Positions 677-29,271 of a DNA stretch of 30,405 nucleotides are shown piece after piece. The notes under the pieces are model-generated. The model was given only the letters and a program-made list of their open reading frames with translations. It was not told the origin of the DNA and ran no database searches. Position numbers and translations under genes: made by a program. This DNA is from a virus. The DNA is taken from IMG/VR virus record IMGVR_UViG_3300009529_000032, positions 1 through 30,405 of that record. One strand, 5' to 3'. The stretch's first letter is position 1. Each line of letters opens with the position of its first letter.

Positions 677-3600
677 CTATGTATAAGCCAAAAGATAATA
701 GGGTGTCCCACCGATATAGATTGTGACATGGCCAGTGGCGGCGCTAGTGCCAGCGTAATAATTATCAATGGTACATCCATTCCATTTTACCGAGTCCAAT
801 ACCCGAATATTAGCATCATAATAGGCTATCTTCCCTGCTATAGTACCAGGTTCTTTTCCGTCTACCAATTGAGAGTCTGCAACGCGGCCGCTAGCATCGT
901 AATAAGCGATATCCCCTACGCCGGTGCCAGGCTGCCTGCTGTCTACATAGTCGGCATTGAGGTTGGTTACTTTTGTTGTGGAAAGCACCGTAAGCGGAGG
1001 GCCCCCGATTGTGGATTGATCGGAATAAAATGTCAGGGCTCGTATCTGATAGGCCCCTACGTCCCAGTTAGCATCTAGTGTAACATTTTTGAGATGGCGA
1101 GAGGAATCTACAATCCCTGTGGCACCAATCGCATAACTTGCACCAGCAATATTTCCTAGACTATCACAAATTGTGCCAAATGTTGCTGCGACGAAAGACG
1201 AGCCTCTAATTTGAGCACCCCATAAATCACCACTACAAACCAGGTGTGTGCCGCTGCCATAAAGCTGAGGCCCATTCACGAATCCAATCGTCCCTGCCGA
1301 CTGAATGCTAATAGCAGCCGTTATCGTCCCCGCCTTAATCTGGGTACACTCAATATCTCCTGCATAAATAACACCAGCTACAAACGTCCCTGCCGTGATC
1401 TTATTTGCAGCCACACTCCCTGCGTAGACAACCCCGGCTTGAAGTGTTCCCGCTGTGATCTTGGTAGCTGCTAGAGAAATAATCTGGCCGCTGGGAATGT
1501 TATTGGCCGGAACGTCCGAGGGCGCGTCAATCTGCTGTGGCGTGGCCGATCCCTGCGCGGTGTAGGCTGAGTAATTCGGAGTACTGGCGGTATCATAGGC
1601 TCTCACTTTAACGTAGTGGGCTACGTAGCTGGCTGTTTGGTAAGTATGTGCAGTGCTCTTCCCACTGTGAACCAGGGTGCTCGCTGAAGGTGTAAACCCA
1701 TTACTCGTTGAAACGTGAAATTCGTTACCCGCCCAGTCGCCCTCAGTATTTTTGTCTACCTTGATGCGAATGGCTTTCTTAGCTGCTGTAACGGTTAGGT
1801 TAGCAGGTATGGCCGGGGCTATAGTATCCTTAGCGGTAGTACCTGTAGCAGCAGTGCAGTATCCGCTCGGATTTCCCCCCATGTCCACAGCCTGTACCTG
1901 CACTGAGTAAGCAACGTGGCTATCAACGGGGAAGATATATTCCGCGGTTTGGCTTTCAGGAACGCGCTTCGTACTGGTATTCCCGCCAATCACCCACTTG
2001 ACATCGTAACCACCCATATCCAGCTCGCTATTTGCCGACCAGGATATGTTCAGATAGGAGTGCCAGTGCCCATCATCGTCTTGAGCTGTACCAGTACTTA
2101 CGCTGAGGCCCGTGGGTGCAGCGGGCGCTACGTCCACAAGCTCGGCCATCCCTCGAAACAGGTCGGACAGGCTGGAGATGTATTTCCCCATCTCCACAGC
2201 GAAACTGGCGTGCCCACCACCAATAAACTTGGTGGTCACCTTCTTGATCTCGAAGGCGGCATCAATGCTCCGTACCGCATTGACCAGGGTCACGTCCTGG
2301 CCGCTCCGTAGTCCTGGCCGGCGCGTGGTCAGAGTATATGATGGTGCAGCAGCCGCGGCCAACAAGAAAGCGTCGCCCCTCTCCTCGGCCTGGGCCGTGG
2401 TGGTGATGTTGTTGTCTTTGAGCACGTCGACTATCCAGCGGCCGTAGTCTTCCTCCGCTCCCCTAGTGCGCGTGGCTGTGACCGTTCCCGCGCCGATGAC
2501 GAGCACCTTGTTGGCCTGCGGCGCCTCGGTGATCTCGTGCAGACCCTTATAGGGAAACGAGGCGGCCAGATCAGGTGAATCGGAGAGGGAGAAGGGGGCA
2601 ACGTTGGTGCCGGCATCGAAGTAGTGAAGGTAGGCGTTTTGAGCGCCTGGGCCTGGCCCATAGTCCACGTACCACTCGGCGCCGGCCAGCGCCGCCAGGT
2701 CGTCCAGCACGGCCCACGGCTTTTGTTGAACGTACTCCCGGCTAACTGTGTCGGCTTTGACTTCCTCGACGTAGGTAGTGCAGTCAATGTCGGGTATGCA
2801 GGCGGCCACGGCGTTCTGGATGATCCACTGGTCGGATTTGCTGGTGTAGGTCCCGTCCACCAGGGCCTCCGGATGCTCCAGGTCCCAGGAATAATCTACA
2901 CACTCGATCTCGTAATCCAGGTCGTAGCCGGCCTGGCCCTCGATTTCTTCTTTCGTCTGGATGTAGCCAGCGAAGTACCTCGTGCCTCCATCGAGCGAGG
3001 AGATGATCACCTCCTGCAATTCGGCCAGGCCCATCGCGCCCCCGCCCCGCAAAGCGAACGAGGCAGTGTTGACCTGTTTGCCTAATACGTCAACGATGCG
3101 GATGGTGTCGCGGTCAATAGACAGGGTGCGGTCAACATCGTTGATGGTGATCTTGAGGGGGATGGTCTCGAACAGGTACGGCGTCCCGAAGGCTTCCGCG
3201 CTGGCGATGCCGGTTGGGCTAATAGTGATGGCAATGCTGGCCGTGCCGAAAGCCTCCGCACTGGCAATGCCTGCCGGCTCAATCAACGTACCGATGCTGA
3301 GTGTCCCGAAGGCTTCTGCACTGGCGATGCCGGCCGGCTCTAGCTTTAGGTTTAACTGAGCGGAGCCGAACGCCTCGGCACTGGCGATGCCCGAGGCTTC
3401 GAGTTTTAGATTGATTTGAGCCGTCCCAAACGCCTCCGCACTGGCGATGCCGGTCGCTATGATCGGGCCTACCACGACAGGAGACCCAATTGCTTCGGCG
3501 CTGCCAATGCCGGTAGGCTCTAGTATCAGGTTCAACTGAGCAGCGCCGAACACCTCTCCACTGGCGATGCCGGCCGGCTCGAGCTTCAGATTTAACTGAG

Positions 3601-5116
3601 CGGAGCCGAACGCCTCGGCACTGGCGATGCCGGCCGGCTCTAGCTTCAGGTTTAACTGAGCGGAGCCGAACGCCTCGGCGCTACCGATGCCCGTCACCGT
3701 GATCGGGCCGGCGACGATGGGAGACCCAATTGCTTCCGCGCTCGCAATACCCGTGGGGCTGATGAGCTGGCCTACTGTGGCGGTGCCAAATGCCTCTCCA
3801 CTGGCAATGCCGGCCGGCTCTAGCTTCAGGTTTAATTGGGCGGAGCCGAACGCCTCGGCACTGGCGATGCCGGCCGGCTCTAGCTTCAGGTTTAACTGAG
3901 CAGTACCGAACGCCTCGGCACTGGCGATGGCCGTGGGGGCGATGGTCGAGATGATCACAGCCACGCCAAAGGCCACGGCGGTGGCTATGCCTGTAGCAGC
4001 CAGTTTCAGGTTGAGCTGTGGGGAGCCAAACGCCTCAGCACTGGCAATGCCGGTCGGCTCAAGTGTTTGGGTGACTGCCTGCTCCGCCCCCACGCTGTAG
4101 AACGTGCTGGGGTCGTTTTGGGTGTTGTAGGTGGTGGTGATGTAGTTGGCGGTGCGGGCTATATTTGAAACGCGAACCTCGTCAACCTCACCATCGAATG
4201 GAGTGCCGTATCCTCCAGATCGCTTTCCAATCTTGAACTCATCAAATACAATAGTGCCACCCACGGCGAAATTGCTGTATTCTGCACCACCTTCGTAGAC
4301 CCGCCCTGTAGTCCCATCGTGCGTCTGGGCAGTATAATACCAAGTGTTATTTGAACCGGTAAATCCGACTACGCTCCCGGCATTGCCATATATCGCTAAG
4401 ATGAAGTGACTACCCGCAGGATTGGTGTACATAAAAGCATTGTAGTTATTCCAAGTAAACGTTATCCTTGACCAGTAGGGATAACCATCAGTTGTACCCT
4501 CAACATCGTGTCCCCTTACCCACGCCTCAACTGTATGATTGGCAAATGAACCAAGGTTGCCACAGTTGATATAATCGTCGCTGCCATCAAACTCCTGTCC
4601 ATTTCCAATTTGTCCTGTCTTGCCCGTGGCACTCACATAGTCGATGCCGTCCTTACCGTTGCTGGTAGAGTCATAGAATGTGCCCGATGCTTCTCCCAGA
4701 TGCCACACACCTTTGAAATTACTGTCCCACGTCCCCGCCACGTCCTCCTGGGAGGTGGTGACGCCAGAGTCGCCGTAGCACATGTAAAGCACGGTGTTCT
4801 GTGTCCCAGAGAGGGCAGTGATCTCAACCCAGGAGATTATCTCGCCAGAGGTAGCAGAATACTTCTCAATTTCGTGGTCATATTCGGAGCTTCCGTCAGT
4901 GTTGGGGGAGAAAACGAGGTCGGCGGGAACGGTGTAAGAACCCGACGCGCCACCCGAGGCGGTATTCTGGACATTGCCACCGTTGTCGTCGAGGCGAATG
5001 TCAGGCTCGCCACCCGTGCCGTCATACGTCCCGCTGATTAGGACGGGGAAATTAGCCAGGTCGCCAGGGACCTTGGTTGCATCTATAGTTATTTCACTGT
5101 AGAAACTGTACGCCAT
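677..5116 (-). CDS. Fused tail hub/tail fibre protein with lectin-like and repeat domains
   Basis: This 1479-residue protein is the largest product in the window and the likely receptor-recognition component. Visible blocks in order: a DUF2341-like domain (~1-140); a LamG/concanavalin-like lectin domain (~130-345, with GVWHLGEASG and FDGSDDYINCGN); 15 tandem 20-residue repeats (356-655, consensus GIASAEAFG plus 11 variable residues); a baseplate-hub/Tal-like region (~660-990); two fibronectin type III domains (~995-1195, with PTGLSV and IPANLTV starts); then KITAGT repeats (~1215-1290) and a fibre-like tip with two PGT..G.IAYYDA..RV.DS modules. The ATG is preceded by TAGGAG. It lies downstream of the tape measure region, as expected for a hub/fibre. 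Domain names come from recognition by eye; the order, with the lectin part ahead of the hub, is unusual. Confidence 0.85.
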   Translation of the reverse strand: MAYSFYSEITIDATKVPGDLANFPVLISGTYDGTGGEPDIRLDDNGGNVQNTASGGASGSYTVPADLVFSPNTDGSSEYDHEIEKYSATSGEIISWVEITALSGTQNTVLYMCYGDSGVTTSQEDVAGTWDSNFKGVWHLGEASGTFYDSTSNGKDGIDYVSATGKTGQIGNGQEFDGSDDYINCGNLGSFANHTVEAWVRGHDVEGTTDGYPYWSRITFTWNNYNAFMYTNPAGSHFILAIYGNAGSVVGFTGSNNTWYYTAQTHDGTTGRVYEGGAEYSNFAVGGTIVFDEFKIGKRSGGYGTPFDGEVDEVRVSNIARTANYITTTYNTQNDPSTFYSVGAEQAVTQTLEPTGIASAEAFGSPQLNLKLAATGIATAVAFGVAVIISTIAPTAIASAEAFGTAQLNLKLEPAGIASAEAFGSAQLNLKLEPAGIASGEAFGTATVGQLISPTGIASAEAIGSPIVAGPITVTGIGSAEAFGSAQLNLKLEPAGIASAEAFGSAQLNLKLEPAGIASGEVFGAAQLNLILEPTGIGSAEAIGSPVVVGPIIATGIASAEAFGTAQINLKLEASGIASAEAFGSAQLNLKLEPAGIASAEAFGTLSIGTLIEPAGIASAEAFGTASIAITISPTGIASAEAFGTPYLFETIPLKITINDVDRTLSIDRDTIRIVDVLGKQVNTASFALRGGGAMGLAELQEVIISSLDGGTRYFAGYIQTKEEIEGQAGYDLDYEIECVDYSWDLEHPEALVDGTYTSKSDQWIIQNAVAACIPDIDCTTYVEEVKADTVSREYVQQKPWAVLDDLAALAGAEWYVDYGPGPGAQNAYLHYFDAGTNVAPFSLSDSPDLAASFPYKGLHEITEAPQANKVLVIGAGTVTATRTRGAEEDYGRWIVDVLKDNNITTTAQAEERGDAFLLAAAAAPSYTLTTRRPGLRSGQDVTLVNAVRSIDAAFEIKKVTTKFIGGGHASFAVEMGKYISSLSDLFRGMAELVDVAPAAPTGLSVSTGTAQDDDGHWHSYLNISWSANSELDMGGYDVKWVIGGNTSTKRVPESQTAEYIFPVDSHVAYSVQVQAVDMGGNPSGYCTAATGTTAKDTIAPAIPANLTVTAAKKAIRIKVDKNTEGDWAGNEFHVSTSNGFTPSASTLVHSGKSTAHTYQTASYVAHYVKVRAYDTASTPNYSAYTAQGSATPQQIDAPSDVPANNIPSGQIISLAATKITAGTLQAGVVYAGSVAANKITAGTFVAGVIYAGDIECTQIKAGTITAAISIQSAGTIGFVNGPQLYGSGTHLVCSGDLWGAQIRGSSFVAATFGTICDSLGNIAGASYAIGATGIVDSSRHLKNVTLDANWDVGAYQIRALTFYSDQSTIGGPPLTVLSTTKVTNLNADYVDSRQPGTGVGDIAYYDASGRVADSQLVDGKEPGTIAGKIAYYDANIRVLDSVKWNGCTIDNYYAGTSAATGHVTIYIGGTPYYLLAYT
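3152..4051 (-). repeat. Fifteen 60-bp tandem repeats in the tail fibre gene
   Basis: The region encodes 15 consecutive 20-residue units, each starting with a GIASAEAFG-like nonapeptide (variants GIATAVAFG, GIGSAEAIG, GIASGEVFG). Several units share the following 11 residues SAQLNLKLEPA almost exactly, and the DNA of those units is nearly identical. Others diverge at the variable half only. This pattern points to repeated duplication and recombination within the array. Confidence 0.9.
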
Positions 5117-5688: not shown

Positions 5689-5835
5689 TTTCTTGCCTCC
5701 TGTTATGATTTAGCCCAGCCGCCCCGCCGCAAGCAGGGACGGCAGGCGTTTCCCGAACTCCGCGCCAGGGATAGCTGGGCCATTGAATTGAACCTCTCGG
5801 GACATTCAGAGCTAGAGCTTGAAAATCTTGTTCGC

Positions 5836-6702
5836 CTAAACACTTCCCAATTTCTTTTGTAACCAAATGACCAGATCAGCCTGGCTCTCTAGTGATAACC
5901 TGCCGATTACATCCTTGACGCGGTCCAAGCTACGCTGTCCAGACGGATCTTTCCTTCCCACAGTCCACAGCTCCAGGTTTTCAATACGATTATCATCACG
6001 GACGCCATTTCTGTGGTGGACGTGCTCGTGGGACTTGAGTGGTCGGCCGAGGTGCTCTGCCATCACTAAGCGATGCTCTAGCACATAGCCATTGCAATCT
6101 GTCATCGAATACATCTGATGTTTCTGATCTACTTTGACACGGATATACCCCGATGCCAGATGATATTGCCCGCCTTTCCAGACAGGATTGTTCTCGCCCT
6201 TTTGTCGCTGGCTTTGAGTCAGGCCGGCACACTTACGCCCACAATGCTCAACACCCTCCTTGTAAACTGGAAAGGGCCTCCCACACTGGATACATGTCCC
6301 TACCCGGATTGGGAAGTGGCCATCCTTGCTGCGCATTACCGAAAGCGGAATCGGCAGTCCTAAAACCCCACACAGTCTCTCAAGATTATTTGGTCTGGGA
6401 ACCGTCCTACCCTTTTCCCAAAGACGAACTTGAGTTCCAGTAACTCCAACGGTCTTCCCGACCTGTTCTTGCGTCAAACCAAGAATTAAACGAGATTCCT
6501 TGATTTGATTGCCGAAATCCTCAAAGCGTGCATTCTTGGACATCTCGACGGCCTGAAGTAGCTGCTCCCTGCGCTTTTCCCTATACATGGCTTTCCAGCA
6601 GGGGATACAATATATTTGGCGCCCATCCTTGTTGCAACGGTTTCTATAAAACTCTGATAGCGCCTTTTCTTGGCCGCACTTTGAGCAGATTTTTGTGTCC
6701 AT
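5836..6702 (-). CDS. HNH endonuclease with zinc fingers and XRE helix-turn-helix
   Basis: This 288-residue protein has four visible parts. First, a zinc finger with Cys6, Cys9, Cys32 and Cys35. Second, an XRE-type helix-turn-helix at ~62-118 (LGLTQEQVGKTVGVTGTQV, then LWEKG). Third, a second Cys cluster at ~136-160 (CIQC and HCGRKC). Fourth, an HNH nuclease core at ~195-250 (EHRLVMAEHLG, VHHRNG, DNRIENLELW). HNH proteins of this type are usually free-standing homing endonucleases in phage genomes. It sits between two tail genes but has its own consensus promoter and a palindrome over the promoter and start codon, so it is probably a self-controlled insertion. An extra role as a regulator is inference. 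It is the only XRE domain in the window. Confidence 0.9.
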   Translation of the reverse strand: MDTKICSKCGQEKALSEFYRNRCNKDGRQIYCIPCWKAMYREKRREQLLQAVEMSKNARFEDFGNQIKESRLILGLTQEQVGKTVGVTGTQVRLWEKGRTVPRPNNLERLCGVLGLPIPLSVMRSKDGHFPIRVGTCIQCGRPFPVYKEGVEHCGRKCAGLTQSQRQKGENNPVWKGGQYHLASGYIRVKVDQKHQMYSMTDCNGYVLEHRLVMAEHLGRPLKSHEHVHHRNGVRDDNRIENLELWTVGRKDPSGQRSLDRVKDVIGRLSLESQADLVIWLQKKLGSV

Positions 6703-6761
6703 AATATACCCCCTTGATTTTTAGGTAGGTATATTATAACACCTTGGGATACTGGTGTCAA
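6701..6761 (-). promoter_or_regulatory. Consensus sigma-70 promoter with palindromic operator for the HNH/XRE gene
   Basis: On the minus strand TTGACA (6756-6761) and TATAAT (6733-6738) are both perfect and separated by exactly 17 bases. A perfect 10-bp inverted repeat, ATAATATACC at 6701-6710 paired with GGTATATTAT at 6728-6737, has one arm on the -10 box and the other on the ATG start codon (6700-6702). A protein binding this palindrome would block both RNA polymerase and translation initiation, so autorepression by the encoded helix-turn-helix is a natural reading, though not shown. Confidence 0.8.
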
Positions 6762-6764
6762 ATC

Positions 6765-7202
6765 TCAAAGCTTAAATATACGATTCGCCCCTGCATCCCA
6801 CGCGATGGTGATGTCGCCGCCATTGGGGGTCACCGGAAGCCCAGTCGCCGTATCGATGTATGCGATCAGCAGGTCGGTAACCCCACTCTGGGTAACTCCG
6901 CCGCCGCCACCATCCTTGAAGATGACGAGGGCCTCGCACTGCTCGCCAGAGACGGAGCTAAGCGTCACGTCGGCCGCGTCCGCCACTCCCAGCGTCGAGG
7001 TCTTGCTGGCCAGGTTGCCACTCAGGCCGTTGGTCACCCGCGCCAGATCAGGAATGGTGTCCTTGTTGCAGTACTGGTCAACGTCTATAGAGACGACGTA
7101 ATCGGTCGTGTCCACGAGCAGGCACTTGATGTCGTTAGCCGACCAATCAATGTCACCATCGAGAAACGCGGCCCTGCCCTTTCCATACAATGCGTTTGCC
7201 AT
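6765..7202 (-). CDS. Small virion-like protein of the tail module
   Basis: This 145-residue protein has a hydrophilic, beta-rich sequence. It begins MANALYGKGRAAFLDGDIDW and then reads DIKCLLVDTTDYVVS, ends with GGDITIAWDAGANRIFKL and has a GGGGG stretch at ~100. This opening (an N-terminal KGRAAFLDGDIDW followed by IKCLLVDT) is a recurring pattern among phage structural proteins near tail fibre and tape-measure genes, although the exact role is unnamed. The ATG is preceded by AAGGAGG. It lies 15 bases downstream of the tape measure gene. The HNH promoter begins only a few bases beyond its stop. Confidence 0.7.
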   Translation of the reverse strand: MANALYGKGRAAFLDGDIDWSANDIKCLLVDTTDYVVSIDVDQYCNKDTIPDLARVTNGLSGNLASKTSTLGVADAADVTLSSVSGEQCEALVIFKDGGGGGVTQSGVTDLLIAYIDTATGLPVTPNGGDITIAWDAGANRIFKL

Positions 7203-7217
7203 TTTAGTACCTCCTTC

Positions 7218-10200
7218 TTATATTATTCCTTCCCGCCGCAGTTGCGCGGCGATGTACTTCCCAAACTTTTCCGCTGCTTCCCTGTCCGTACCGTAGAGAT
7301 TGTGAACCTCGATGTGAACGTCACCTCTGCCCCGCGCTGGTGTCGGCGCTGCTGCTGCGGATGAATACGCCGCCCCAGGCGCAGGCATAGCTATCGCCAA
7401 CTGCGGCTGCCAGTCCCCCATCGCCTTCTCCCATCCCACCCCCAGCCCCTGGGCCAGTTGCTGGCCGATCCTCTCCGTCATCCTGGAGGGTGAACCGATC
7501 TGGGCGGCAGCTTCCAGGGCGGTCTGCACGGCGGCGATGATGTCGTTCACGACCTGGATGAGCTGGTCGTAGTAGCTCATCATACCGTCAATCAAGCCCA
7601 CCATCAGACTCTGGCCGGCGCTGTACCCGGCCTCGGCCAGAATAGGCGCCAGGGTCGCAGCGATGACATCGCACAGATCTTCAATCAGATCACCAACCGC
7701 CCCCCTGATCCGTTCCCACTCGTCGGAGCACGCCTGCACGAACCCATCGGCCAGCGATGCCAACAGATTCTTTCCCGCCTCGATCAGGCTATGTGGCTCA
7801 GCAGTGCCCATCTCCTGAAGAGTGTTCAGGCCCTCGACGCCCGTCGCGATGTTGGACATGATCTCGGCCACGTCGGCCGCGAACGCCTTCGCCAGGGGCA
7901 CGGCGTCGGCTACGTCTATCCCCGTCTGAGCCAGCATCCTCACTACAGCTTTCAAATCGCGCTTGAGGGCGTCAATCTGAGGAATGACATAGCCCGCTAC
8001 GAACGTCCACTCCCCAATACCCGTATATCCTGCCAGGTCTACCAGGCCCGCGGTGATCGAGGACAGGGCCCGCCCGATTTCGCTAGTTACCTTAGCCACC
8101 CGGTCCGCCGCATCCATCGCTTCGGGTCCAAACTCATCGGCCACGTCGCTCAAAGCCTGGATGACCAGACGCAAATCGCGCTTGAAGTTCTCCAGGGCAG
8201 GAATGACATACAGGCCGAAGAACGTCCACTCCCCAATGCCCTCCCAGCCGGCCAGCGCCTGCAAGCCGCTGATCATAGCCTCGAAACCCGACCCCAGGCC
8301 CCGCATCACCCCGCCCAGCCGCTCCAGCACAGCGGCCTCCCCCTCGCCAATGCCCAGCTCCAATCCGGCCATGAGGGCTTTACCGATCTCGATGAACACG
8401 GTGGAAGGAGAACCTATGCCCAACCAGCCTTTGACAGCATTGACGGCGTCCTTCACCGCGCCCAGCGCAGCGTCGAGAACCCCCCTGGCCATAGCCTTCA
8501 CCCCCTCGATCAGGCCACCTATGAGGTCCTTGCCTACCTGGACAAAATTGCCCACTGTGCCCTTAATATCTCCTACAATGTCAGAGACCTTGGTCTTGAG
8601 CACATCCCAGGCTGTATTCCAGGCGGATTGTATAAGAGACATGGCAATTTCCAGCGTGTTTTCCACGATGTCAATGGCACTGGAGACGATAGACTTGATC
8701 CCCTCCCAAATTGTCTCGCCTACATCTTTAATGGTTTCCCAGGCCCCCTCCCAATCGCCCTGAATGAGCAGCATCACTGTCTTGATGATGCCCAGGATGG
8801 CATTGATGACGGTCTTAATGTAGGTCTCGATAATATCCCAGGCCGAACGCACGATAGACATGATGCGCTCACCGTGATCCTCCCAAAAATCCTTGACGGC
8901 AGTGAGGATGGTCTCTACTACACCCTGAATGATACCCAAGGTCGTGTCTATGAAACCGCTGATCCAACCCCACACCGTCTCCACCGTCCCCTGGATCAGC
9001 GCGTGATTCTCCTCCCACCAGCCACGTATCATGTCGAGCACAGCATTAATCTTCTCACCGATGGCATCCATCACTGCTGCGATCTTGGGTTGTATAAAAT
9101 CAAAGACCGCCTTTGTTTTGTCCTGAATGCCTCCAAAGTTGCTCTCCCAGGCTTTTTTCAGCAATACAATGGCCGCCACTACTGCGGCAATTGGTATAAC
9201 TATAGGGGCCAAGGCTGCAATAGTAGCCGCCGCGCTGGCCGCCGCTGCGGTAGCCCACGCCACTAGCGCCGGGATAACAACGATGGTAATGGCTGTCGCT
9301 AATCCTGCCAGAATTGGCATGAAGTTGTCACCGATAAATGATACAATACTTGATACCGCAGGAATGAGGGTCCCGCCAATGAACTCCCCTAACTGCGCAA
9401 GGAAGCCCATCAGCATCGGCCCATACTGTGTAGCTAATTCCTGGAGCTTTCCTGAAAGTTCCGTCGCCCACTCCGTCACCCTCGGACCATACTCCTGGGC
9501 GAGCTTTCCCAGCGGCTCTAACACCGCCATCAAAACGGGAATGAAAGCTGAACCTACCTCGGTAGTGATATTGGAGAAGGTGGTCTTGAGCTGGGCCATG
9601 GTCACCTGCGCCCCGCCTGTGCCCTCCCCTAGGCGATTGATCATGTCCTCGCCGGCCACCATGACCTGGTTCATGAACGCCTGTTTCTTCTCGGCGTCGG
9701 TCAGCTCATCAACGGTCTTGCCTAGTGCAGCGGCGTATTCCTCGTTGGCCGCTGTCACGTCCATAGTGATGCCGAGGTTATCGATGATGAGCTTCGAGCT
9801 GCGGCCAATGCCTGTGACCAACGACTGGAACATGAAGCCCATGTCTTCGCCCGTGGCCCTCGACGCGGCCTGGGCGATCTTGAGCATCTGGGGAAGTTCG
9901 TCGGCCACGTCCTGGCCGATCAAGAGCATGGCCTTGTTGGCATTCTCCATGAGGGCAGCGTCGGTGATCATGCCCTGCGACGCCTCGCGCATGGACGATA
10001 GCATGGCCTGGGCACTCGTGCCCGCATCGGTGGCCAGCCGCTCAAACGATTGGCGCACCGGCTCCAGCGCCGCCGCATCCGATGCCAGCTTGCCAATGCC
10101 AACCACCAGCGCCCCAACACCCGCAGCGGCACCAACGGCCAGCCCGGCGGCAACTTTCCCCAGCTTGCCCAGGCTGCCCTGGATGCCGCCCAGGGCCTTC

Positions 10201-10253
10201 GACGCATCATCCTTAGCTTTGATTACGATAGCAAGTGCAGCAGTAGATGCCAT
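7218..10253 (-). CDS. Tail tape measure protein
   Basis: This 1011-residue protein has the signs of a tape measure. It has a hydrophobic Ala/Gly-rich N-terminal segment (~30-60). The long helical middle is rich in Trp and amphipathic repeats such as WDIIETYIKTVINAILGIIK. A strongly hydrophobic stretch at ~305-370 could insert in a membrane, and the C-terminus ends in VHNLYGTDREAAEKFG. The domain near 70-240 (ASQGMITDAALMENANKAM) is typical of the phage tail tape measure family. Two copies of an ~80-residue unit containing GIGEWTF and YVIP lie near 660-800. Tape length sets tail length; at about 1.5 Angstrom per residue this predicts a tail near 150 nm (rule of thumb). The ATG has GGAGAGG upstream. 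Confidence 0.92.
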   Translation of the reverse strand: MASTAALAIVIKAKDDASKALGGIQGSLGKLGKVAAGLAVGAAAGVGALVVGIGKLASDAAALEPVRQSFERLATDAGTSAQAMLSSMREASQGMITDAALMENANKAMLLIGQDVADELPQMLKIAQAASRATGEDMGFMFQSLVTGIGRSSKLIIDNLGITMDVTAANEEYAAALGKTVDELTDAEKKQAFMNQVMVAGEDMINRLGEGTGGAQVTMAQLKTTFSNITTEVGSAFIPVLMAVLEPLGKLAQEYGPRVTEWATELSGKLQELATQYGPMLMGFLAQLGEFIGGTLIPAVSSIVSFIGDNFMPILAGLATAITIVVIPALVAWATAAAASAAATIAALAPIVIPIAAVVAAIVLLKKAWESNFGGIQDKTKAVFDFIQPKIAAVMDAIGEKINAVLDMIRGWWEENHALIQGTVETVWGWISGFIDTTLGIIQGVVETILTAVKDFWEDHGERIMSIVRSAWDIIETYIKTVINAILGIIKTVMLLIQGDWEGAWETIKDVGETIWEGIKSIVSSAIDIVENTLEIAMSLIQSAWNTAWDVLKTKVSDIVGDIKGTVGNFVQVGKDLIGGLIEGVKAMARGVLDAALGAVKDAVNAVKGWLGIGSPSTVFIEIGKALMAGLELGIGEGEAAVLERLGGVMRGLGSGFEAMISGLQALAGWEGIGEWTFFGLYVIPALENFKRDLRLVIQALSDVADEFGPEAMDAADRVAKVTSEIGRALSSITAGLVDLAGYTGIGEWTFVAGYVIPQIDALKRDLKAVVRMLAQTGIDVADAVPLAKAFAADVAEIMSNIATGVEGLNTLQEMGTAEPHSLIEAGKNLLASLADGFVQACSDEWERIRGAVGDLIEDLCDVIAATLAPILAEAGYSAGQSLMVGLIDGMMSYYDQLIQVVNDIIAAVQTALEAAAQIGSPSRMTERIGQQLAQGLGVGWEKAMGDWQPQLAIAMPAPGAAYSSAAAAPTPARGRGDVHIEVHNLYGTDREAAEKFGKYIAAQLRREGII

Positions 10254-10265
10254 CGAATACCTCTC

Positions 10266-10457
10266 CTATTTGGCCCGTGCCTTCGCAGCCGCCGCGTCAG
10301 CCCGCATCATCATGACAATATCATCCACGACGTGGGCGGGAGCTTCCTGAAGGTCATGCCAGCTCCAGCCCATGTATCTACATATCAGGATCGGCATCAT
10401 GCGAGCGGGATATTTGCCCTTCCCCATCGCCGCGTCTACCATGTCAAAATAAGGCAT
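10266..10457 (-). CDS. Tail assembly chaperone, second frame (T part of a G/GT pair)
   Basis: The 63-residue frame begins MPYFDMVDAAMGKGKYP and ends with an Ala/Lys-rich tail (ADAAAAKARAK). It includes ILICRYMGWSWHDLQEAP and lies between the first chaperone gene and the tape measure, exactly where siphoviruses keep the second part of the chaperone. The first gene stops at 10444 and this frame is offset by +1 relative to it. It could start alone at the ATG (10455-10457), which has no good ribosome binding site. More likely it is made as a fusion: a +1 slip at the TTT TGA C stop site would yield one protein of 10266-10869 in two frames. Confidence 0.75.
   Translation of the reverse strand: MPYFDMVDAAMGKGKYPARMMPILICRYMGWSWHDLQEAPAHVVDDIVMMMRADAAAAKARAK
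10444..10452 (-). other. Candidate +1 programmed frameshift site (TTT TGA C)
   Basis: Reading on the minus strand, the first chaperone frame ends TTA TTT TGA (10452 to 10444), followed by C. The P-site TTT codon can re-pair one base downstream because four Ts are in a row, while the A site holds the poor stop TGA C. This is the arrangement of the bacterial release factor 2 frameshift. After the shift the next codon is GAC, leading into DMVDAAMG of the second frame. Confidence 0.6.
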
Positions 10458-10869
10458 CCGCGTCCGCGTCCTCGTCCTCCTCGCCAGACGAGCGGGTGGG
10501 ATTGAAGACGTTGATCTTCTCCAGGATGAACTCGGCGTACGGTTCGGTAAGCCGCCTGACGTTTCGCCGTGAGAATGGCACTTCTTTGCCCTCACGGGTG
10601 TACAGGGTCCAGGACTTGATGCCCCTGTCCAGAATGGACAGATTCATCTTGCCTAGGACGACCTCGCTCTTTACCGTCGTGTCTTGCTTTATTTTGTCGC
10701 CCTTCTTGCCCTTCCAGTCGGCAGACAGCTTCATATACTCGCCAGACAAGGCCTGCCGGTCAGCGTAGGAGAACTTCTTAATAGTCACTTCCTCGCCATC
10801 CTTGAAGAAGGGCGCGACGATAGTCTCCACATCCTGGGTGTCGATAAAGGCGTGAATTTCCTCGGTCAT
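10444..10869 (-). CDS. Tail assembly chaperone, first frame (G-like)
   Basis: This 141-residue acidic protein begins MTEEIHAFIDTQDVETIVAPFF. The ATG at 10867-10869 has GAGGTGACG directly upstream, so this start is chosen over a longer reading with no ribosome binding site. It contains FSYADRQALSGEYMK and ends in a run of Asp, Glu and Ala followed by Leu-Phe. Its place between the tail tube and tape measure genes is the standard place for the gene whose product binds the tape measure during tail assembly. Family membership rests on position, size and the frame-shifted partner rather than on a motif. Confidence 0.75.
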   Translation of the reverse strand: MTEEIHAFIDTQDVETIVAPFFKDGEEVTIKKFSYADRQALSGEYMKLSADWKGKKGDKIKQDTTVKSEVVLGKMNLSILDRGIKSWTLYTREGKEVPFSRRNVRRLTEPYAEFILEKINVFNPTRSSGEEDEDADADALF

Positions 10870-10906
10870 CTCGTCACCTCTTATATTGAATTGTCGCCTG
10901 GCCAAT

Positions 10907-11926
10907 CTACGGCAGCGTGGCTACACCGTTGTGCGCCTGGATCCGGAACAACTTGGCATAGTCGGAATCGTACTGAGCTGCCAGGGTCAACTCCACCAAC
11001 GTCTGGCCATCGGCCTCTGCCAACTCAGCCACGTCCTTGATCAGATAGGCGCCGTCAATGTAGACGTATTTGGCAGAGTTGGACTCAATGTCAGAGCCTG
11101 TGCCCGCGATCCGCACCAACTGCACTGTGCCGGCGTCGTACTTGGTGGTGATCAGCGTCTTGGTCGTAGAATCCAGCACCAGCCCTAGCGTGAGCTGCGG
11201 ATACCCGATCGCAAATTTCTTCTCGCTATGTTTGGTGAAATACTTCTGCCCGTCGCCGGTGAAAAACGGCGTGAAGTGATCACCCATCTTCCAGTTGAAG
11301 TTCCTGAACGCGGCCTGGATTTGCGTGTCGCCTGGATTGGCCGTGGCCCCCACGTCGTTCATGTAGAGCTTGCTCTTATTCATCAGCACGCTCTCCACTG
11401 TCCGATCCTCCAGCGAGCCGGTGAAGCTGGCCGCGGTGTGCTGGCGGCCTACCAACGGCGCCGACAGCTTCCACGCTTCGCCCAGCGCCCCGCTGATGGC
11501 CAGCCCGGTGGCGAACACGTACTCCGCCTCCCACACCTGCACGTCGTCGCCCCACTCCACCGTAAAGGCGTAGGGGGTGTCGGCGGCGGTGAGGGACGGA
11601 TCGTAGTCCCATAGATAGGAACTGGGATAGTTCGATGAGTCTGGCTGGCTGGCCTCCACTCCCTCGATGGCCATGCTCAGAGCATAGATGAGGTCCTCGA
11701 AGGTCACGTCGCCCGTGAGGTCGCCCAGCTCTGCCTGCTCCTGGGGCACGTAGGCCCGGAAAGCCCCCACCTTCGATCCCCGCTCCTCTTCTGGCTGCAC
11801 CCAGGTCTTGTCACCCACCCTGGGATGCAATAGGAACTGCATCCACTTGGCCGTGGCTGCCACGGCTGTGCCGAGTGAGCCCGCTGTTTCCTTACCTGCT
11901 TGGACTCGATAGAAAGGAAAACCCAT
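10907..11926 (-). CDS. Major tail tube protein
   Basis: This 339-residue protein has no membrane or signal segment. It begins MGFPFYRVQAGKETAG. The beta-rich body includes LTGDVTFEDLIYALSMAIEG and FAIGYPQLTLGLVLDSTTK, and it ends with LAAQYDSDYAKLFRIQAHNG. Siphovirus tail tube proteins of this group share the DVTFEDLIYAL-type N-terminal half, and its position ahead of the chaperone and tape measure genes matches. The absence of a sheath gene in the window argues for a non-contractile tail. The ATG follows AGGAGGTTTAGGCA. It is separated by only 13 bases from the glycosyltransferase gene upstream, which makes it a possible substrate of those enzymes (inference). Confidence 0.85.
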   Translation of the reverse strand: MGFPFYRVQAGKETAGSLGTAVAATAKWMQFLLHPRVGDKTWVQPEEERGSKVGAFRAYVPQEQAELGDLTGDVTFEDLIYALSMAIEGVEASQPDSSNYPSSYLWDYDPSLTAADTPYAFTVEWGDDVQVWEAEYVFATGLAISGALGEAWKLSAPLVGRQHTAASFTGSLEDRTVESVLMNKSKLYMNDVGATANPGDTQIQAAFRNFNWKMGDHFTPFFTGDGQKYFTKHSEKKFAIGYPQLTLGLVLDSTTKTLITTKYDAGTVQLVRIAGTGSDIESNSAKYVYIDGAYLIKDVAELAEADGQTLVELTLAAQYDSDYAKLFRIQAHNGVATLP

Positions 11927-11939
11927 TGCCTAAACCTCC

Positions 11940-12890
11940 TTACTTTTTTCTCTTATGCCGAGGCTTGACTTTAGCGTAAGCCTCAGCGACAGTTATGTCA
12001 TCTCTGATACCAGACAGATTTGACTCCACATTGTCCACTTTGATCTTGGACATCTGCACCTTGGCCCTGACCACGTCGGCGATCTCCTCGTACAGGCCAC
12101 TGGCTACCAACCCTTGCTTTGTCCAGCCGCCGCGCTGGATCAGCCCCATTAGCTCCCTCGCCGTCAGGTCGTGCGACGGGACGCCAATCAGAAAACGGCC
12201 TTGCTGCCCTACGAACTTCAACACTATTTCCATCCATTTCCTCCTGAAAAGTTTGCCTGCCTCCTCGATGTAGGCAGATGTATGGTCATCGTGGCTGCCC
12301 CGGCACAGATGGACGATGGCGGGCTCTGTGGTGACGTACTTACGTCCGTCCAGGACGGCACGGTACGACAAATCTAAGTCATCGTAGCCAAAGAAAAACT
12401 GCTCGTCGAAGCCGCCCACGCTCTCGAACCAGTCCCGCCTCACAGCCAGGCAGGCTCCGCTGATAAAGTTGGTATACCGCGACAGTTGGCCATCGGGCTT
12501 CACCTGCTGTGAGCCCGCGATGGCCACCTCGGGATCCTCGAAGGCCGCCAGCACCCCCTCCAGCCAACCGTCGCTCAATTCTACGTCGGTGTTCAGAAAG
12601 ACGATGATCTCCGCCTCGCCCAATGATGTCCCTTGGTTGCACGCTTTGGCAAAGCCCAGGTTCTCCTCGTTGAAGATCACTGTGAGATATGGACCATATC
12701 CATTCTCATCGCACAAAAGTTCTCGGAGAAAATCCACTGACCCGTCTTTTGAACCATTATCCACCACGACGAGATGACCTCCGAGGTGGCCTGCAGAGAG
12801 CCTTGCCCAAATTGTCTCGTCCACCTGTTGTATTAGGCCCTGGAGGAGGGGAAGGGTATTGTAAGATGGAATCACTATGTCAACTTTCAC
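11940..12890 (-). CDS. GT2-family glycosyltransferase (third of a trio)
   Basis: This 316-residue protein has a GT2 (GT-A fold) domain: a start IVIPSYNTLPLL, the nucleotide-binding VVVDNGSKDGS (~42-52), LGFAKACNQG and the DxD-type FLNTDVELSDGWLEG (~110-124), then SGACLAVRRDWFESVGGFDEQFFFGYDDLDLSYRA, typical of rhamnosyltransferase-like enzymes. A ~90-residue C-terminal tail (LTARELMGLIQ to KPRHKRKK) is not part of the catalytic domain and ends in a basic run. The start is GTG, overlapping the previous stop as GTGA, with AGGAG upstream. It transfers a sugar from an activated donor to an unknown acceptor. It lies 13 bases before the tail tube gene. Confidence 0.9.
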   Translation of the reverse strand: MKVDIVIPSYNTLPLLQGLIQQVDETIWARLSAGHLGGHLVVVDNGSKDGSVDFLRELLCDENGYGPYLTVIFNEENLGFAKACNQGTSLGEAEIIVFLNTDVELSDGWLEGVLAAFEDPEVAIAGSQQVKPDGQLSRYTNFISGACLAVRRDWFESVGGFDEQFFFGYDDLDLSYRAVLDGRKYVTTEPAIVHLCRGSHDDHTSAYIEEAGKLFRRKWMEIVLKFVGQQGRFLIGVPSHDLTARELMGLIQRGGWTKQGLVASGLYEEIADVVRAKVQMSKIKVDNVESNLSGIRDDITVAEAYAKVKPRHKRKK

Positions 12891-13549
12891 AGCACCAACT
12901 CCTGAACATAACGCCGCGTCACTTCCTCACGCTCCTGATAGTGATACGGACGATGGCTATAACCTACCCCATCCCCCCCTGGCAACTCCACCAGCCGGTC
13001 TCGAAGCCCCAACGAGGCCAGATGCACCGGCCGCCCCTTCCCCACTGCTAAACTAAACCAGATATCCTCGTGGATCCAAGGATCGTTTGCCCCGCTTGGC
13101 GGCCTGAGCACAGGGAAGCGCACCCTGTTCACAAGAGCCTTGCGAAATATCCAGAAGCGGCTCTTGACGATCTCCACGCTGCCAAAGGCGTCCTGGGCGT
13201 AATGGGGCGGCACAAAGGACAGCCTACGCCCAAAAGCCCCCGTAATGGCGTTGGGGCGCATCCTGGCCAACTCCAGCGCGTCGGCCACGAACTCCATATC
13301 CCCCGGCTTCAGATCATCCTGGATCACCATTACCCATTCCGTCCGGGCATACAGCGCAAATGGAATCACCAGAAACGGCCCCGCGTCCCAGGGCACGTGC
13401 ACCGTCCGCTCCACCCCGAAATCCTCGCATCCCGCATTATTGATCAGCATCAACTCAAGCCGCACGGTCTGGGCTCGCAGCATAGCGATGATCTGGGCCA
13501 TGTTCTGAGGGCGTTTGTAGTTGATGAGGACAGCAGTCACCTCAGCCAT
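12887..13549 (-). CDS. GT2-like glycosyltransferase (second of a trio)
   Basis: The protein is 220 residues from the ATG at 13547-13549; an adjoining GTG at 13550-13552 is an alternative start. It begins AEVTAVLINYKRPQNMAQII. It continues with LMLINNAG and the acidic motif VMVIQDDLKPGDMEFVADAL (~93-112), then the late motif IHEDIWFSLAVGKGRPVHL. The size is that of a compact GT-A domain and the acidic QDD motif is the presumed metal and donor site. It overlaps the upstream gene by one base and the downstream one by four, so the three are translationally coupled. AGGAG precedes the start. The acceptor is unknown. Confidence 0.8.
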   Translation of the reverse strand: MAEVTAVLINYKRPQNMAQIIAMLRAQTVRLELMLINNAGCEDFGVERTVHVPWDAGPFLVIPFALYARTEWVMVIQDDLKPGDMEFVADALELARMRPNAITGAFGRRLSFVPPHYAQDAFGSVEIVKSRFWIFRKALVNRVRFPVLRPPSGANDPWIHEDIWFSLAVGKGRPVHLASLGLRDRLVELPGGDGVGYSHRPYHYQEREEVTRRYVQELVL

Positions 13550-14091
13550 CACACTGAACTCCTATCCACCTCGGTCACCACTCTGTCCAGCCAATGAAAC
13601 GAGTAGCCGCTTTCCCACAACTTGCGTATAAAGTAGAAGTCCCCGCAGATGGGCCTCCCAAACTCCGCGATGTGTTCCTGCCAAATCTCACGCTTCACCA
13701 GAAAACAAGGAGAGCCTACCTTGCCTAATACTGGCGGCCCGCGCCAATTCTCCTCGTCTGGCAATATCTCCCCCTCGAAATAATGCAGCCGCCGCATCCT
13801 CACCATGATCACGTCAGGATCCTCCTCGGCAGCCACCCCCTTCGCCTCCGCCACGAAGTCGGGGTCGCACAGATAATCATCGTCGTCCAGGATGTACACG
13901 TACCGCCCCGCCAGCACGTCTCCCGCGGCCGCCAGGCTCAGATTGGCATCGTACAGGTTGGCCGCGCCCTCGATGAAGATCTGCTCGAAGCCCTGATCCG
14001 TTTGCTCCCGCACCGACCGCGTGTTGCGCAGTAGCAACTCGGCGCGATCAGGACTGCACCGGGTTACGATGGACAGGAATACATCAGGCAT
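13549..14091 (-). CDS. GT2-family glycosyltransferase (first of a trio)
   Basis: The protein is 180 residues, short for a GT2 enzyme, yet the core motifs are intact: FLSIVTRCSPDRAELL at the start, FEQIFIEGA, the acidic YILDDDDYLCDPDFVAEA (~68-85), and the late stretch SPCFLVKREIWQEHIAEFGRPICGDFYFIRKLWESG. The ATG at 14089-14091 has GGAGGTGAA just before it. A GTG two codons upstream forms part of that ribosome binding site, so ATG is chosen. It overlaps the upstream head-tail gene by eight bases. Placement within a structural operon argues for modifying a virion component instead of the host surface. Confidence 0.85.
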   Translation of the reverse strand: MPDVFLSIVTRCSPDRAELLLRNTRSVREQTDQGFEQIFIEGAANLYDANLSLAAAGDVLAGRYVYILDDDDYLCDPDFVAEAKGVAAEEDPDVIMVRMRRLHYFEGEILPDEENWRGPPVLGKVGSPCFLVKREIWQEHIAEFGRPICGDFYFIRKLWESGYSFHWLDRVVTEVDRSSV

Positions 14092-14545
14092 ATTCACCTC
14101 CGCTGGCCGTGGACTTCTCGAAGACCTCCAGCGTCATCTCCTGCAGCAGCCAGTAGGGGCCCTGCCCCGCCTTTTCCCCGAAGGAAACCCGCCGCACCGT
14201 CTCCCCTGCCGTGATCATGCACCTGGTGATGTTCCCCAAGGCGTTCAGCGTGGGATAGCCGTCGAAGGTGTCAATCAACGTCTGGCGGTGAGCCACGATG
14301 TTGTCCAGCTCAGAGCCATCGCCCGCGTACTGCTCGTAAAGCTCGATGGGGATGACCCACTTATTCATCCGCCCCTGGGGATGGACGTCCGCCCCCCTCT
14401 CGAAGGCACCACCGCCCAGGATCGCATAAGGCGGCGAGCCGCGACTGAACACCCGATAATCGCCCCGCGTCACGTCGCCATCGTCATAATCATCCAGAGC
14501 CTGGATGATGGATTGCACCGCGGCCAAAACCGTCGTATAACTCAT
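14084..14545 (-). CDS. Head-tail completion / tail terminator-like protein
   Basis: The protein is 153 residues from the ATG at 14543-14545, which overlaps the upstream stop as ATGA. It begins MSYTTVLAAVQSIIQALDDYD. The middle contains PLYAILGGGAF-like and WVIPIELYEQY segments and it ends QEMTLEVFEKSTASGGEYA. The size, the helical start followed by beta strands with VFSRGSPPYAIL and IPIELYEQY, and the place after a connector gene match tail terminator (gpU-like) proteins that cap the tail tube. The identification is by position and overall form, since no diagnostic motif is known to me. Confidence 0.65.
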   Translation of the reverse strand: MSYTTVLAAVQSIIQALDDYDDGDVTRGDYRVFSRGSPPYAILGGGAFERGADVHPQGRMNKWVIPIELYEQYAGDGSELDNIVAHRQTLIDTFDGYPTLNALGNITRCMITAGETVRRVSFGEKAGQGPYWLLQEMTLEVFEKSTASGGEYA

Positions 14546-15051
14546 TCCTCGTCCCAATCTACGATGCTCTGACGCATCATTTTGCGAGAGAAGATCGGCT
14601 CGATCTCGTCACCCGCATCGTCCGTGGCCCAATAGCTCAGGCCGTAAGTCAGCGAGCGGTCCCGAGTAGCCCCCAGCGACTGGATCCCCTCGGAGTGCTC
14701 GGAGATGAACTGCTCGGCGTCGCCCATGATCACCCTGAAACGGCCCCGGCTCCTCAGCTCCCCTTCGTCCATGTAGAAGCGGCCCGCCATATTGGCCGAC
14801 TCCACCAGGTCGGCCACCTCCTCCACCACGAAGTGATCCAGGGCCAGCTTGGCGTCCGCCTGGGAGATGGGAATGGAAAAGCCCTCCTCCGCCAGCAGCA
14901 CATTGACGATAGCCGACACGCGATCAATGAACGCCTCGACCTGCGCTGTGGTGGGCCTGGTAGCCGTGCTGAAACTGCCGCTGGCCGTAAATTGAGGAGT
15001 AAGAGCAGCCACCTCCGCGACCGAGCTGTAGGAGTTAGCCCCTATTGCCAT
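14542..15051 (-). CDS. Head-tail connector protein (adaptor-like)
   Basis: This 169-residue protein begins MAIGANSYSSVAEVAALTP, a serine/valine opening followed by helices: TTAQVEAFIDRVSAIVNVLLAE, QADAKLALDHFVVEEVADLVES and a late EPIFSRKMMRQSIVDWDEE. Phage head-tail adaptors of the gp6/gp15 type start in the same way, with a first helix scanning 'evaal', and carry a long helix pair. GGAGGTGTAGC precedes the ATG. It joins the capsid portal to the tail completion proteins. The assignment is moderate, resting on pattern and gene order. Confidence 0.7.
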   Translation of the reverse strand: MAIGANSYSSVAEVAALTPQFTASGSFSTATRPTTAQVEAFIDRVSAIVNVLLAEEGFSIPISQADAKLALDHFVVEEVADLVESANMAGRFYMDEGELRSRGRFRVIMGDAEQFISEHSEGIQSLGATRDRSLTYGLSYWATDDAGDEIEPIFSRKMMRQSIVDWDEE

Positions 15052-15780: not shown

Positions 15781-16419
15781 TTAGTTGTCAGCGAACGCCG
15801 CGATCTTCCGCCACTTAGACCCAACGCACATCAGGGCAACCGCGTCAAACTCGCTTGCGTCCAGCGCGATACTGCCGCCCGCATACAGCGTAGAACTCTC
15901 CGTAATGGTGATGTCGGAATCCCCGGCAATGGCGATAATCACCAACTGGCCGTTCACGGTGCAGGCTGCCATAGTCGCATTTGTTATGGTAGATGCCGCC
16001 GTGATCACCACCGAGCTTGTTAAGGGAGTAATGGCCGAACCATAGACCAAGACCGTGTTCGCCGCCCCAGGACTTGCAGCTAAGGGGCCGGCCAAAGTCA
16101 ATCCACCAGTCGAAGTAAAGTCAGTCCCAGCCGCGCCCAGGTTCGTAGGCGCATTGTTCTTGAAGTCAGCTATCCCGCCATCGGCGATATCGAAGACCTC
16201 GGTCCCGCCATCCTTGAAGCTCACGACGTCGCTCGTGCCATTCTGATCCACGTCCAGCCCAACGTTGCTATCGCCGCTCGGCACGTCTATCTCGATGCCG
16301 GTGTAGTTGGTCACGCCCTGCGGAACCACCTCCACCTTCGGGCAGATCACCCCACAGGACGGCACGAACAGTGCCAGCGCCATGACGAGGGCCAGCATTG
16401 CCAGTCGCTTGTTCTTCAT
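15781..16419 (-). CDS. Lipoprotein with virion-like beta domain, in the head module
   Basis: The protein has 212 residues from the ATG at 16417-16419, which has GGAGGTGCAAAAT before it. The first 21 residues are a signal peptide (MKNKRLAMLALVMALALF) ending in a lipobox-like VPSC with Cys22. The mature part is beta-rich: DVDQNGTSDVVSFKDGGTE, then ITNATMAACTVNGQ and SIALDASEFDAVALMCVG-SKWRKI. The last stretch resembles the ends of phage fibre or decoration domains. A membrane-anchored lipoprotein beside the capsid gene is odd. It might exclude other phages or hold a virion-type domain on the cell surface. Both ideas are inference. Confidence 0.75.
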   Translation of the reverse strand: MKNKRLAMLALVMALALFVPSCGVICPKVEVVPQGVTNYTGIEIDVPSGDSNVGLDVDQNGTSDVVSFKDGGTEVFDIADGGIADFKNNAPTNLGAAGTDFTSTGGLTLAGPLAASPGAANTVLVYGSAITPLTSSVVITAASTITNATMAACTVNGQLVIIAIAGDSDITITESSTLYAGGSIALDASEFDAVALMCVGSKWRKIAAFADN

Positions 16420-16442
16420 ATTTTGCACCTCCGTTGTTTGCC

Positions 16443-27792: not shown

Positions 27793-29271
27793 CTAAACCA
27801 ATTCTATCGTCACCACTCCCCGCCCCTCGCACCACACCGCCCGTACCCGCTGAGCCAGCCAGGCATTGGCCTCTTCAGCGTCCTCAGCATCTAGCCACCG
27901 TTCTACATCAGTGGCGTAGTCCATCAGCCGCCTGGCCCTCTCCTCTCGGTTTGGCAGTTCCTCTTGCCGAGCTATGACCACTGCCAGCGCCTCCTCACCC
28001 TCTTTCTGCCGCCTCGCCGCCTTGGACATCGCCTCGTCGAACACGTCCGCCTGGATGTATCCCCACCTGGTGTGCGCGTCCAGCAGCCGATGGACTTCCG
28101 CCGCCAGGTCGTCCAGCGCAGCCTCTAGCCCCACCCTCGCTCGCCGCAGGGCTATCCGTTCCTCGGCAGCCTGGTCCTGACAGGCCTTCTCCAACTCCTG
28201 TGGGTTCGAGAGCCTGTGAGCCTCGTTCAGCACTGCTTCGCGGATTGCCGCCAGCGGAACGCAGGTGTAGTGAGGTTCTCCGCTGCGCGTGACCCGCGCC
28301 CGCACGCCACGAGAACAGCGGTAATACACGTAGTATTCATCGTCGTGTGGAGGGTGTTTCCGCAAGGATTGCACGGTCATCCCACCGCCGCACACCCGAC
28401 AGCGCACCAATCCGGTGTACGGGTAGGCCGACTTGCCCCGCGTCCTGGCCCGCCGCCGCTTTTCGGCCTGAAGCGCCGACCATTCTTCCGGCATAAAGAC
28501 AGGCTCGTGTTGACCCACCGCCACCACGTCACGCCAGGTCACGAAGCCAGCGTAAAACGGATTGTGCAGCACGCGAGCGACGGTGGACGCGACCCAGACA
28601 GGCCGGCGGCGAGGCTTCCACCGGTCATCGCTGTTGAGACGGGCGGTGATTCGCTGATAGCCCAGACCTTTCACGTAGAGCTTGTACATCTCTCTGAGGA
28701 CCGCAATCTCGCGCGGAACCTTGGCCATGGGCGCATCTTTGTCGACGCGCCTGTAGCCGAAAGGCTCTCTGTTGTTCGGGTGCAGGCCGCGGCGGACGCG
28801 GGCGCGGGTGCCGTCGGAATAGCGACGCTTGAGCTCAATAAGCTCTGCCTGCGCTGTGGCTCGCTCGATTGCCCCAGAATATAGTGCGCCCCGATCTAGC
28901 CCCGCCTGACCAGGCTCGACAATATAACTCGGCATGGCCATCGAGTAGACCTGCATCCCCGCCTGGCGCGCCAATGCCTCGACCTGCGAAATGAGTGCAT
29001 CGCTTCGGCCCAACCTATCTCTCCCCCTGCAAATGAGCACGTCGGCAGCCCGTTTATCGCACAATTCACGAAAACGGCGATAAACCTCCACCTCGACCTC
29101 GGCCTCCGTATAGAAGATGTAGCTTCTTGATTGCCCAAACACAGTGAGCGCCTCCACCACCTGCCATCCAAACCGCTCGGCAATGGCGCGGCCATCTGCT
29201 TCCTGTTGTTCCAAACTATCACCGCGCAGTTGTGGCTTGCTACTGACTGCGCTCCAGACAATTGCTCTCAC
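27793..29271 (-). CDS. Large serine recombinase (phage integrase)
   Basis: This 492-residue protein has a resolvase catalytic domain (~1-150) with WSAVSSKPQ around the nucleophile Ser10, SLEQQEADGRAIAERFGW, and CRGRDRLGRSDALISQVE carrying DR..R. Next a recombinase domain (~170-290) has PFGYRRVDKDAP, YVKGLGYQRITARLNSD and VARVLHNPFYAGFV; then a zinc ribbon (~300-350) with CRVCGGGMTVQS and YYRCS...HYTC. A coiled-coil region follows. It integrates the phage by site-specific recombination at attP/attB. The usual Arg two residues before Ser10 is Ala here. The start is GTG with GGAGGTAGAGA. A terminator follows the gene and a terminator-like hairpin precedes it. Confidence 0.9.
   Translation of the reverse strand: MRAIVWSAVSSKPQLRGDSLEQQEADGRAIAERFGWQVVEALTVFGQSRSYIFYTEAEVEVEVYRRFRELCDKRAADVLICRGRDRLGRSDALISQVEALARQAGMQVYSMAMPSYIVEPGQAGLDRGALYSGAIERATAQAELIELKRRYSDGTRARVRRGLHPNNREPFGYRRVDKDAPMAKVPREIAVLREMYKLYVKGLGYQRITARLNSDDRWKPRRRPVWVASTVARVLHNPFYAGFVTWRDVVAVGQHEPVFMPEEWSALQAEKRRRARTRGKSAYPYTGLVRCRVCGGGMTVQSLRKHPPHDDEYYVYYRCSRGVRARVTRSGEPHYTCVPLAAIREAVLNEAHRLSNPQELEKACQDQAAEERIALRRARVGLEAALDDLAAEVHRLLDAHTRWGYIQADVFDEAMSKAARRQKEGEEALAVVIARQEELPNREERARRLMDYATDVERWLDAEDAEEANAWLAQRVRAVWCEGRGVVTIELV

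Follow-up and report, generated by a model that had tools for sequence, protein, structure and literature searches.

Organization of the transferase locus

The window, i.e. the whole stretch of DNA analysed, is a virus record of 30,405 bases from IMG/VR (IMGVR_UViG_3300009529_000032). The virion genes are placed on the minus strand throughout, from the terminase to the gene in the tape-measure position. The head module contains a terminase (Pfam Terminase_3), a Mu-type portal with a Mu F domain, a Mu-type protease and a Mu gpT head protein, for which the head-protein scan gave no close relatives. The head protein is followed by the neck genes, three glycosyltransferase genes (GT1, gene GT2 and GT3), a tail-tube-position protein, chaperone-position genes and a tape-measure-position protein. 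A serine recombinase is encoded at 27793-29271.

The transferase genes are all on the minus strand. The preferred start of GT1 (13549..14091; 180 aa) is the ATG at 14091, closely preceded by GGAGG. Both fall within the 3' end of the neck gene (stop at 14084-14086); an alternative GTG start at 14097 gives 182 aa. Gene GT2 (12887..13552, start 13552/13549; 220/221 aa) starts on the TGA stop of GT1 at a GTGATG junction. GT3 (11940..12890; 316 aa) overlaps the stop of gene GT2 by 4 nt (GTGA) and is separated from the ATG of the tube gene (11926) by a 13-nt gap containing AGGAGG. The layout described by a previous sequence-only reading, three coupled genes with overlaps among themselves and with the neck gene, the last ending 13 nt short of the tube-position gene, is thus confirmed at 14091-11940 of the minus strand. 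Around the transferases, pattern scans yielded promoter-like and terminator-like patterns at chance level only. The overlaps, the ribosome-binding sites and the lack of a terminator support the co-expression with the virion genes that the same reading had proposed.

The flanking genes are named mostly by position. The neck or tail-terminator-position gene (14084..14557, minus strand), which overlaps GT1, matched no Pfam or PHROG family and does not match its counterpart in the related contig L002. On the other side, the tail-tube-position protein (10907..11926, minus strand) is 75-76% identical to that of L002 and has relatives in contigs L006 and L007; its label derives from position and from a weak PHROG tail match of these relatives (phrog_290). 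The tail assembly chaperone-position protein (10444..10905, minus strand) belongs to the same conserved block and is ~75% identical in L002. The tape-measure protein, assigned by position (7218..10253, minus strand; 1,011 residues), retains its N-terminal part in L002 (53%). The tail region also holds a gene for a helix-turn-helix plus HNH protein (5836-6702), and the tail-tip protein (677-5116) carries a LamG lectin-like domain and many tandem GIASAEAFG-type repeats.

In L002 the trio has the same order; consecutive transferase genes share 4 nt, and the overlap of GT3 with the tube gene amounts to 20 nt. The amino-acid identities between the two phages are 76% for GT1, 81% for gene GT2 and 67% for GT3. 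The dN/dS values of the same pair (NG86) are ~0.19, ~0.15 and ~0.24, respectively, and 0.23 for the tube gene. The transferases are therefore under purifying selection as strong as that on the tube gene. The recurrence of order and overlaps at 67-81% identity, with dN/dS of ~0.15-0.24, shows that the arrangement is not due to chance. The catalytic acidic motifs are intact and unchanged in the relatives. Hydropathy revealed no evident transmembrane segment in GT1, gene GT2 or GT3.

Enzyme families and predicted folds

GT3 is a classical GT2-family enzyme with a divergent basic C-terminal tail and the motifs NTD and FGYDDLD. It matches Pfam Glycos_transf_2 above the cut-off (3.7e-20), which GT1 and gene GT2 do not. 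Its PHROG matches are transferases annotated as moron or host-takeover genes, together with a weak match to a GtrB-like PHROG. The GT3 profile also has a weak similarity to polypeptide GalNAc-transferases (7e-7). This was considered as a sign of a protein acceptor and rejected, since it is only partial and is followed in the ranking by GT-A enzymes of other, unrelated kinds.

GT1 matches no Pfam model and has only a marginal PHROG match (8.7e-4). Its AlphaFold2 model (pLDDT 84, pTM 0.85) retrieves with Foldseek, as top matches, the GT2-type GT-A enzymes RmlT, WrtF and SpsA (~1e-9). The DDD of its motif YVYILDDDD is invariant across six relatives. From the model, GT1 is predicted to be a small GT-A glycosyltransferase with a GT2-type fold and a DXD-type motif. 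The relatives of GT1 and gene GT2 in contig L010 pass Pfam Glycos_transf_2 (2.4e-5 and 1.1e-5, respectively).

Gene GT2, whose product bears the motif QDD, has no family match of its own in Pfam or PHROG. This putative GT-A enzyme was modelled with moderate confidence (pLDDT 66); in the structure comparison, EXTL2 (family GT64) takes all of the first eight places. A five-sequence profile that includes the distant relatives from contigs L009 and L011 matches EXTL2 at 1.1e-6; the three-sequence profile without them gave no EXTL2 match. The gene GT2 group and the GT64-like genes of L009 and L011 are full-length homologues (hhalign 97%, 2e-11). Family GT64 (EXTL2 and the C-terminal domain of EXT2) is thus the closest in fold to the predicted product, but the close group of the window alone does not reach it by sequence. 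The product is called GT64-like and not a GT64 member because the EXTL2 match needs the two distant relatives in the profile. The earlier description of three GT2-like genes consequently holds for GT3 and, at the level of fold, for GT1, whereas the product of gene GT2 is nearest to GT64/EXTL2; only GT3 is a classical member of the GT2 family.

Relatives of the cassette in other phages

Relatives of GT1 were found in six phage contigs: the window, L002, L008, L009, L010 and L011. In all six the gene is within or directly beside head or tail genes, although the structural character of the flanks in L008, L009 and L010 is partly positional, because some flanking genes have no PHROG match. Placement of these genes outside the structural operon, which the sequence-only reading had named as contrary evidence, was not encountered among the six. 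The search for the trio beside tail genes, which that reading had proposed as a check, found it in L002 and, for GT1 and gene GT2, in L010. All the contigs compared may be fragments, and early regions with possible DNA-modification genes may be missing.

The window and L002 share the tail block GT1, gene GT2, GT3, tube, chaperone and tape measure. Most of the L002 head module differs, with an HK97-type head protein (phrog_10) against the Mu gpT protein of the window. The similarity of the portals is limited to part of the protein and the neck genes are unrelated. An extra gene precedes the trio in L002 (9354-9995); it has no family match and is labelled GT-A-like from reading its sequence.

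Contig L010 keeps the order of GT1 (38-41%) and gene GT2 (41-43%), and a GT-B enzyme (PF13524) comes next. This cassette has a terminator-position gene on one side and two tube-position genes on the other, the same junction as in the window. The two phages have no further gene in common at blastp E <= 1e-5, and their tail genes differ. In L011, GT1, GT64-like and GT3-like genes are part of a larger sugar cassette that immediately follows the gene of the major head protein (phrog_212, 1.9e-54). These three families are also found in L009, where terminase, portal and a capsid-position gene precede them. The cassette of L008 is a large one and lies between an unassigned capsid-position gene and connector-position and tape-measure genes.

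GT1, gene GT2 and the tube protein had no match among 50,697 named phages, and neither did the L009, L010 and L011 relatives of GT1 and gene GT2 when used as queries. Two GTDB scans found no relative, with the limited sensitivity of pattern-based scans.

Several other features were noted in the contigs. The sugar cassettes of L009 (4319-7491) and L011 (5236-8349), which adjoin virion genes, contain an extracellular solute-binding protein gene, two ABC transporter permease-like genes and also a cytidylyltransferase. A Maf-type flagellin transferase in these cassettes is unsupported, as no Pfam match was obtained. In the L009 phage, a gene for a small GroES-like protein (L025, 14090-14476) separates the sugar cassette from the virion genes. 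A Manatee Spring podovirus record (MW202801.1, 6935-11598; L023) has a cassette of Fe/S oxidoreductase, transferase, PhyH, methyltransferase and NodB-like genes between the capsid and tail stabilization genes. The tape-measure ORF of L006 (9622-12966) apparently bears an intein/Hint-like insertion (CLEESAEALTKDRGWVRHDALAAGDEIL...TPHHRWWAS).

Proposed role of the transferases

The cassette of this tailed phage probably serves to glycosylate a virion protein, with the transferases expressed late. Decoration of a virion protein was already the role put forward from the sequence, and the location of GT1 in or beside head and tail genes in 6/6 contigs supports it as the likeliest. Enzyme activity, step order and a virion acceptor are what we infer. 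The transferases would be translated late in infection, on one mRNA with the head-completion and tail proteins. As soluble GT-A enzymes with host sugar nucleotides as donors, they would attach a short glycan to one of the proteins of the forming virion, either ahead of assembly or in the course of it. The common core of the system would be GT1 together with the GT64-like product of gene GT2; the variable part may be added by GT3 and, elsewhere, by a GT-B enzyme or one more gene of the GT-A type.

Several lines of evidence point to virion glycosylation. The genes overlap and have ribosome-binding sites, with no terminator or promoter signal above chance. The trio and the tail block are conserved in L002 against a replaced head module, and GT1 and gene GT2 occupy the terminator/tube junction of L010, which shares no further gene at the blastp threshold used. 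In L006, which has a relative of the tube protein (42%), a methyltransferase and a different, GT4-type transferase appear between the head protein and the adaptor, without GT1 or gene GT2. The cluster O mycobacteriophages offer a precedent, which applies by analogy because the enzymes of the window are not specific homologues of the mycobacteriophage ones.

The virion acceptor could be the tail tube, as the sequence-only reading suggested, and a specific action of GT1-GT3 on this protein would be a special case of virion glycosylation. The transferases adjoin the tube gene and move with it between the window and L002, and capsid and tail tube are the acceptors reported for mycobacteriophages. 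The distribution of the genes speaks against it. Among the loci searched, the tube family occurs only in the window, L002, L006 and L007, and GT1 in the window, L002 and L008-L011. The tube family is therefore present without GT1 or gene GT2 in L006 and L007 (tube 34% in the latter, where the slot has no transferase) and is absent from four of the GT1 contigs. The two do not track each other, which weakens the tube as specific acceptor. In addition, a Ser/Thr-rich C-terminal tail, a possible acceptor, was looked for on the tube and head proteins and none was seen. The specific claim for the tail tube is accordingly not upheld, and we regard it as doubtful.

A candidate alternative acceptor is a fibre-like protein with a lipoprotein-type signal (15781..16422, minus strand). 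Its C-terminal domain is present, among the loci searched, only in the window, L002 and L010, i.e. in the phages with the close pair of GT1 and gene GT2, and is the sole virion feature found common to the three. In leave-one-out tests, profiles of the domain still retrieve the member left out (3.5e-5 to 1.4e-3); L002 and L010 compared on their own give no significant match. The scores are weak and the phages only three, so this link is no more than a lead. It allows the tentative proposal that a new pair of phage enzymes, one a small GT-A enzyme and the other GT64-like and of exostosin type, synthesises a shared core glycan on a virion protein of the fibre type and is exchanged by unrelated phages, so far only uncultivated ones, as a virion-operon module. 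Lipoprotein-type signals (e.g. MKNKRLAMLALVMALALFVPSC) start the fibre-like or small proteins encoded just after the head gene, at 15781-16422 in the window and at 5753-7384 and 7647-8147 in L002. Such signals are odd for virion proteins assembled in the cytoplasm.

Modification of host surface polysaccharide is a common job of GT2 enzymes, and GT1-GT3 might serve in serotype conversion or superinfection exclusion. The annotation of the GT3 PHROG matches as moron or host-takeover transferases agrees with such a role. However, neither a flippase nor a membrane partner of the GtrB type could be recognised in the window, the enzymes have no hydrophobic segment, expression with the late structural operon would be poor timing, and the transferases are kept in or beside virion genes in all six contigs. 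This role is consequently improbable. The genes might also be moron-like passengers, in the operon by accident, and the extra transferase of L002 and the GT-B gene of L010 do show that the block varies. Purifying selection as strong as on the tube gene argues against accident, and so does the recurrence at this place in unrelated phages; we regard it as very improbable.

Phage DNA could also be the substrate, with GT1-GT3 glycosylating modified bases, and virus-encoded DNA glycosyltransferases are a known precedent, as cited in PMC12619734. On the other hand, the cassette is located with virion genes and not with replication genes, and the proteins of the window that were tested include no recognisable hydroxymethylase, dioxygenase or further enzyme of base modification, in a record that may be incomplete. 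DNA glycosylation is thus very improbable. Should virion glycosylation hold, it would be a recurring trait of uncultivated phages and not a speciality of actinobacteriophages, and the glycans would be built by several enzyme sets that are unrelated to each other and lie inserted among the virion genes of the operon. The conserved pair of GT1 and gene GT2 would then be a sequence marker to find such phages, and the cassette a small defined enzyme set for testing phage glycan synthesis and its protective role outside the animal immune system.

Comparison with known systems

The position of the cassette, which the sequence-only reading had taken as unusual for phages, has precedents in the structural operons of the cluster O mycobacteriophages and of the Gordonia phage Phendrix. 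In cluster O (Corndog, Firecracker), an O-methyltransferase and three tandem transferases are encoded between portal and protease; infected cells contained all four enzymes, which were absent from the virion proteins identified by SDS-PAGE analysis (PMC4351075). These transferases are reported to modify the capsid and the tail tube (PMC11600133, PMC12363180, PMC12619734). As in the window, a tandem overlapping trio lies in the structural operon, and the Firecracker overlaps are also of 4 nt. In contrast, the cluster O cassette has another site, and the trio of the window has no adjoining methyltransferase. GT3 matches gp35 at the level of the GT2 superfamily only, and GT1 and gene GT2 have no match beyond noise, hence no specific homologue, in the Firecracker cassette. 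Judged on this cassette, in which gp36 was equated with Corndog gp38 by gene order, GT1 and gene GT2 are not homologues of the capsid-glycosylation transferases (Corndog gp38/Che8 gp110).

The Gordonia phages Phendrix and GodonK are closer in placement. Phendrix genes 79-80 are two transferases with a 4-nt overlap, flanked by the head-tail adaptor and the major tail protein, which is almost the slot of the window. Gene 79 is a distant relative of GT3 (24.8%), whereas gene 80 is unrelated to GT1 and gene GT2 beyond noise. The literature searched contained no functional study of these transferases. Other phages place transferases elsewhere, e.g. Keelan, and Yvonnetastic upstream of the terminase. 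The O-antigen modifying GtrB/GT2 transferases of temperate phages resemble GT3 as a GT2 enzyme with a weak GtrB-like PHROG match; they differ in that the enzymes of the window have no membrane segments, no recognised gtrA partner and a place in the late structural operon.

The arrangement is thus already known, and the enzyme set appears to be new, GT1 and gene GT2 being those without a match in the 50,697 named phages. As far as the sequences indicate, the cassette of the window differs from the mycobacterial-virus cases by its enzyme families and has a similar placement in several unrelated viruses.
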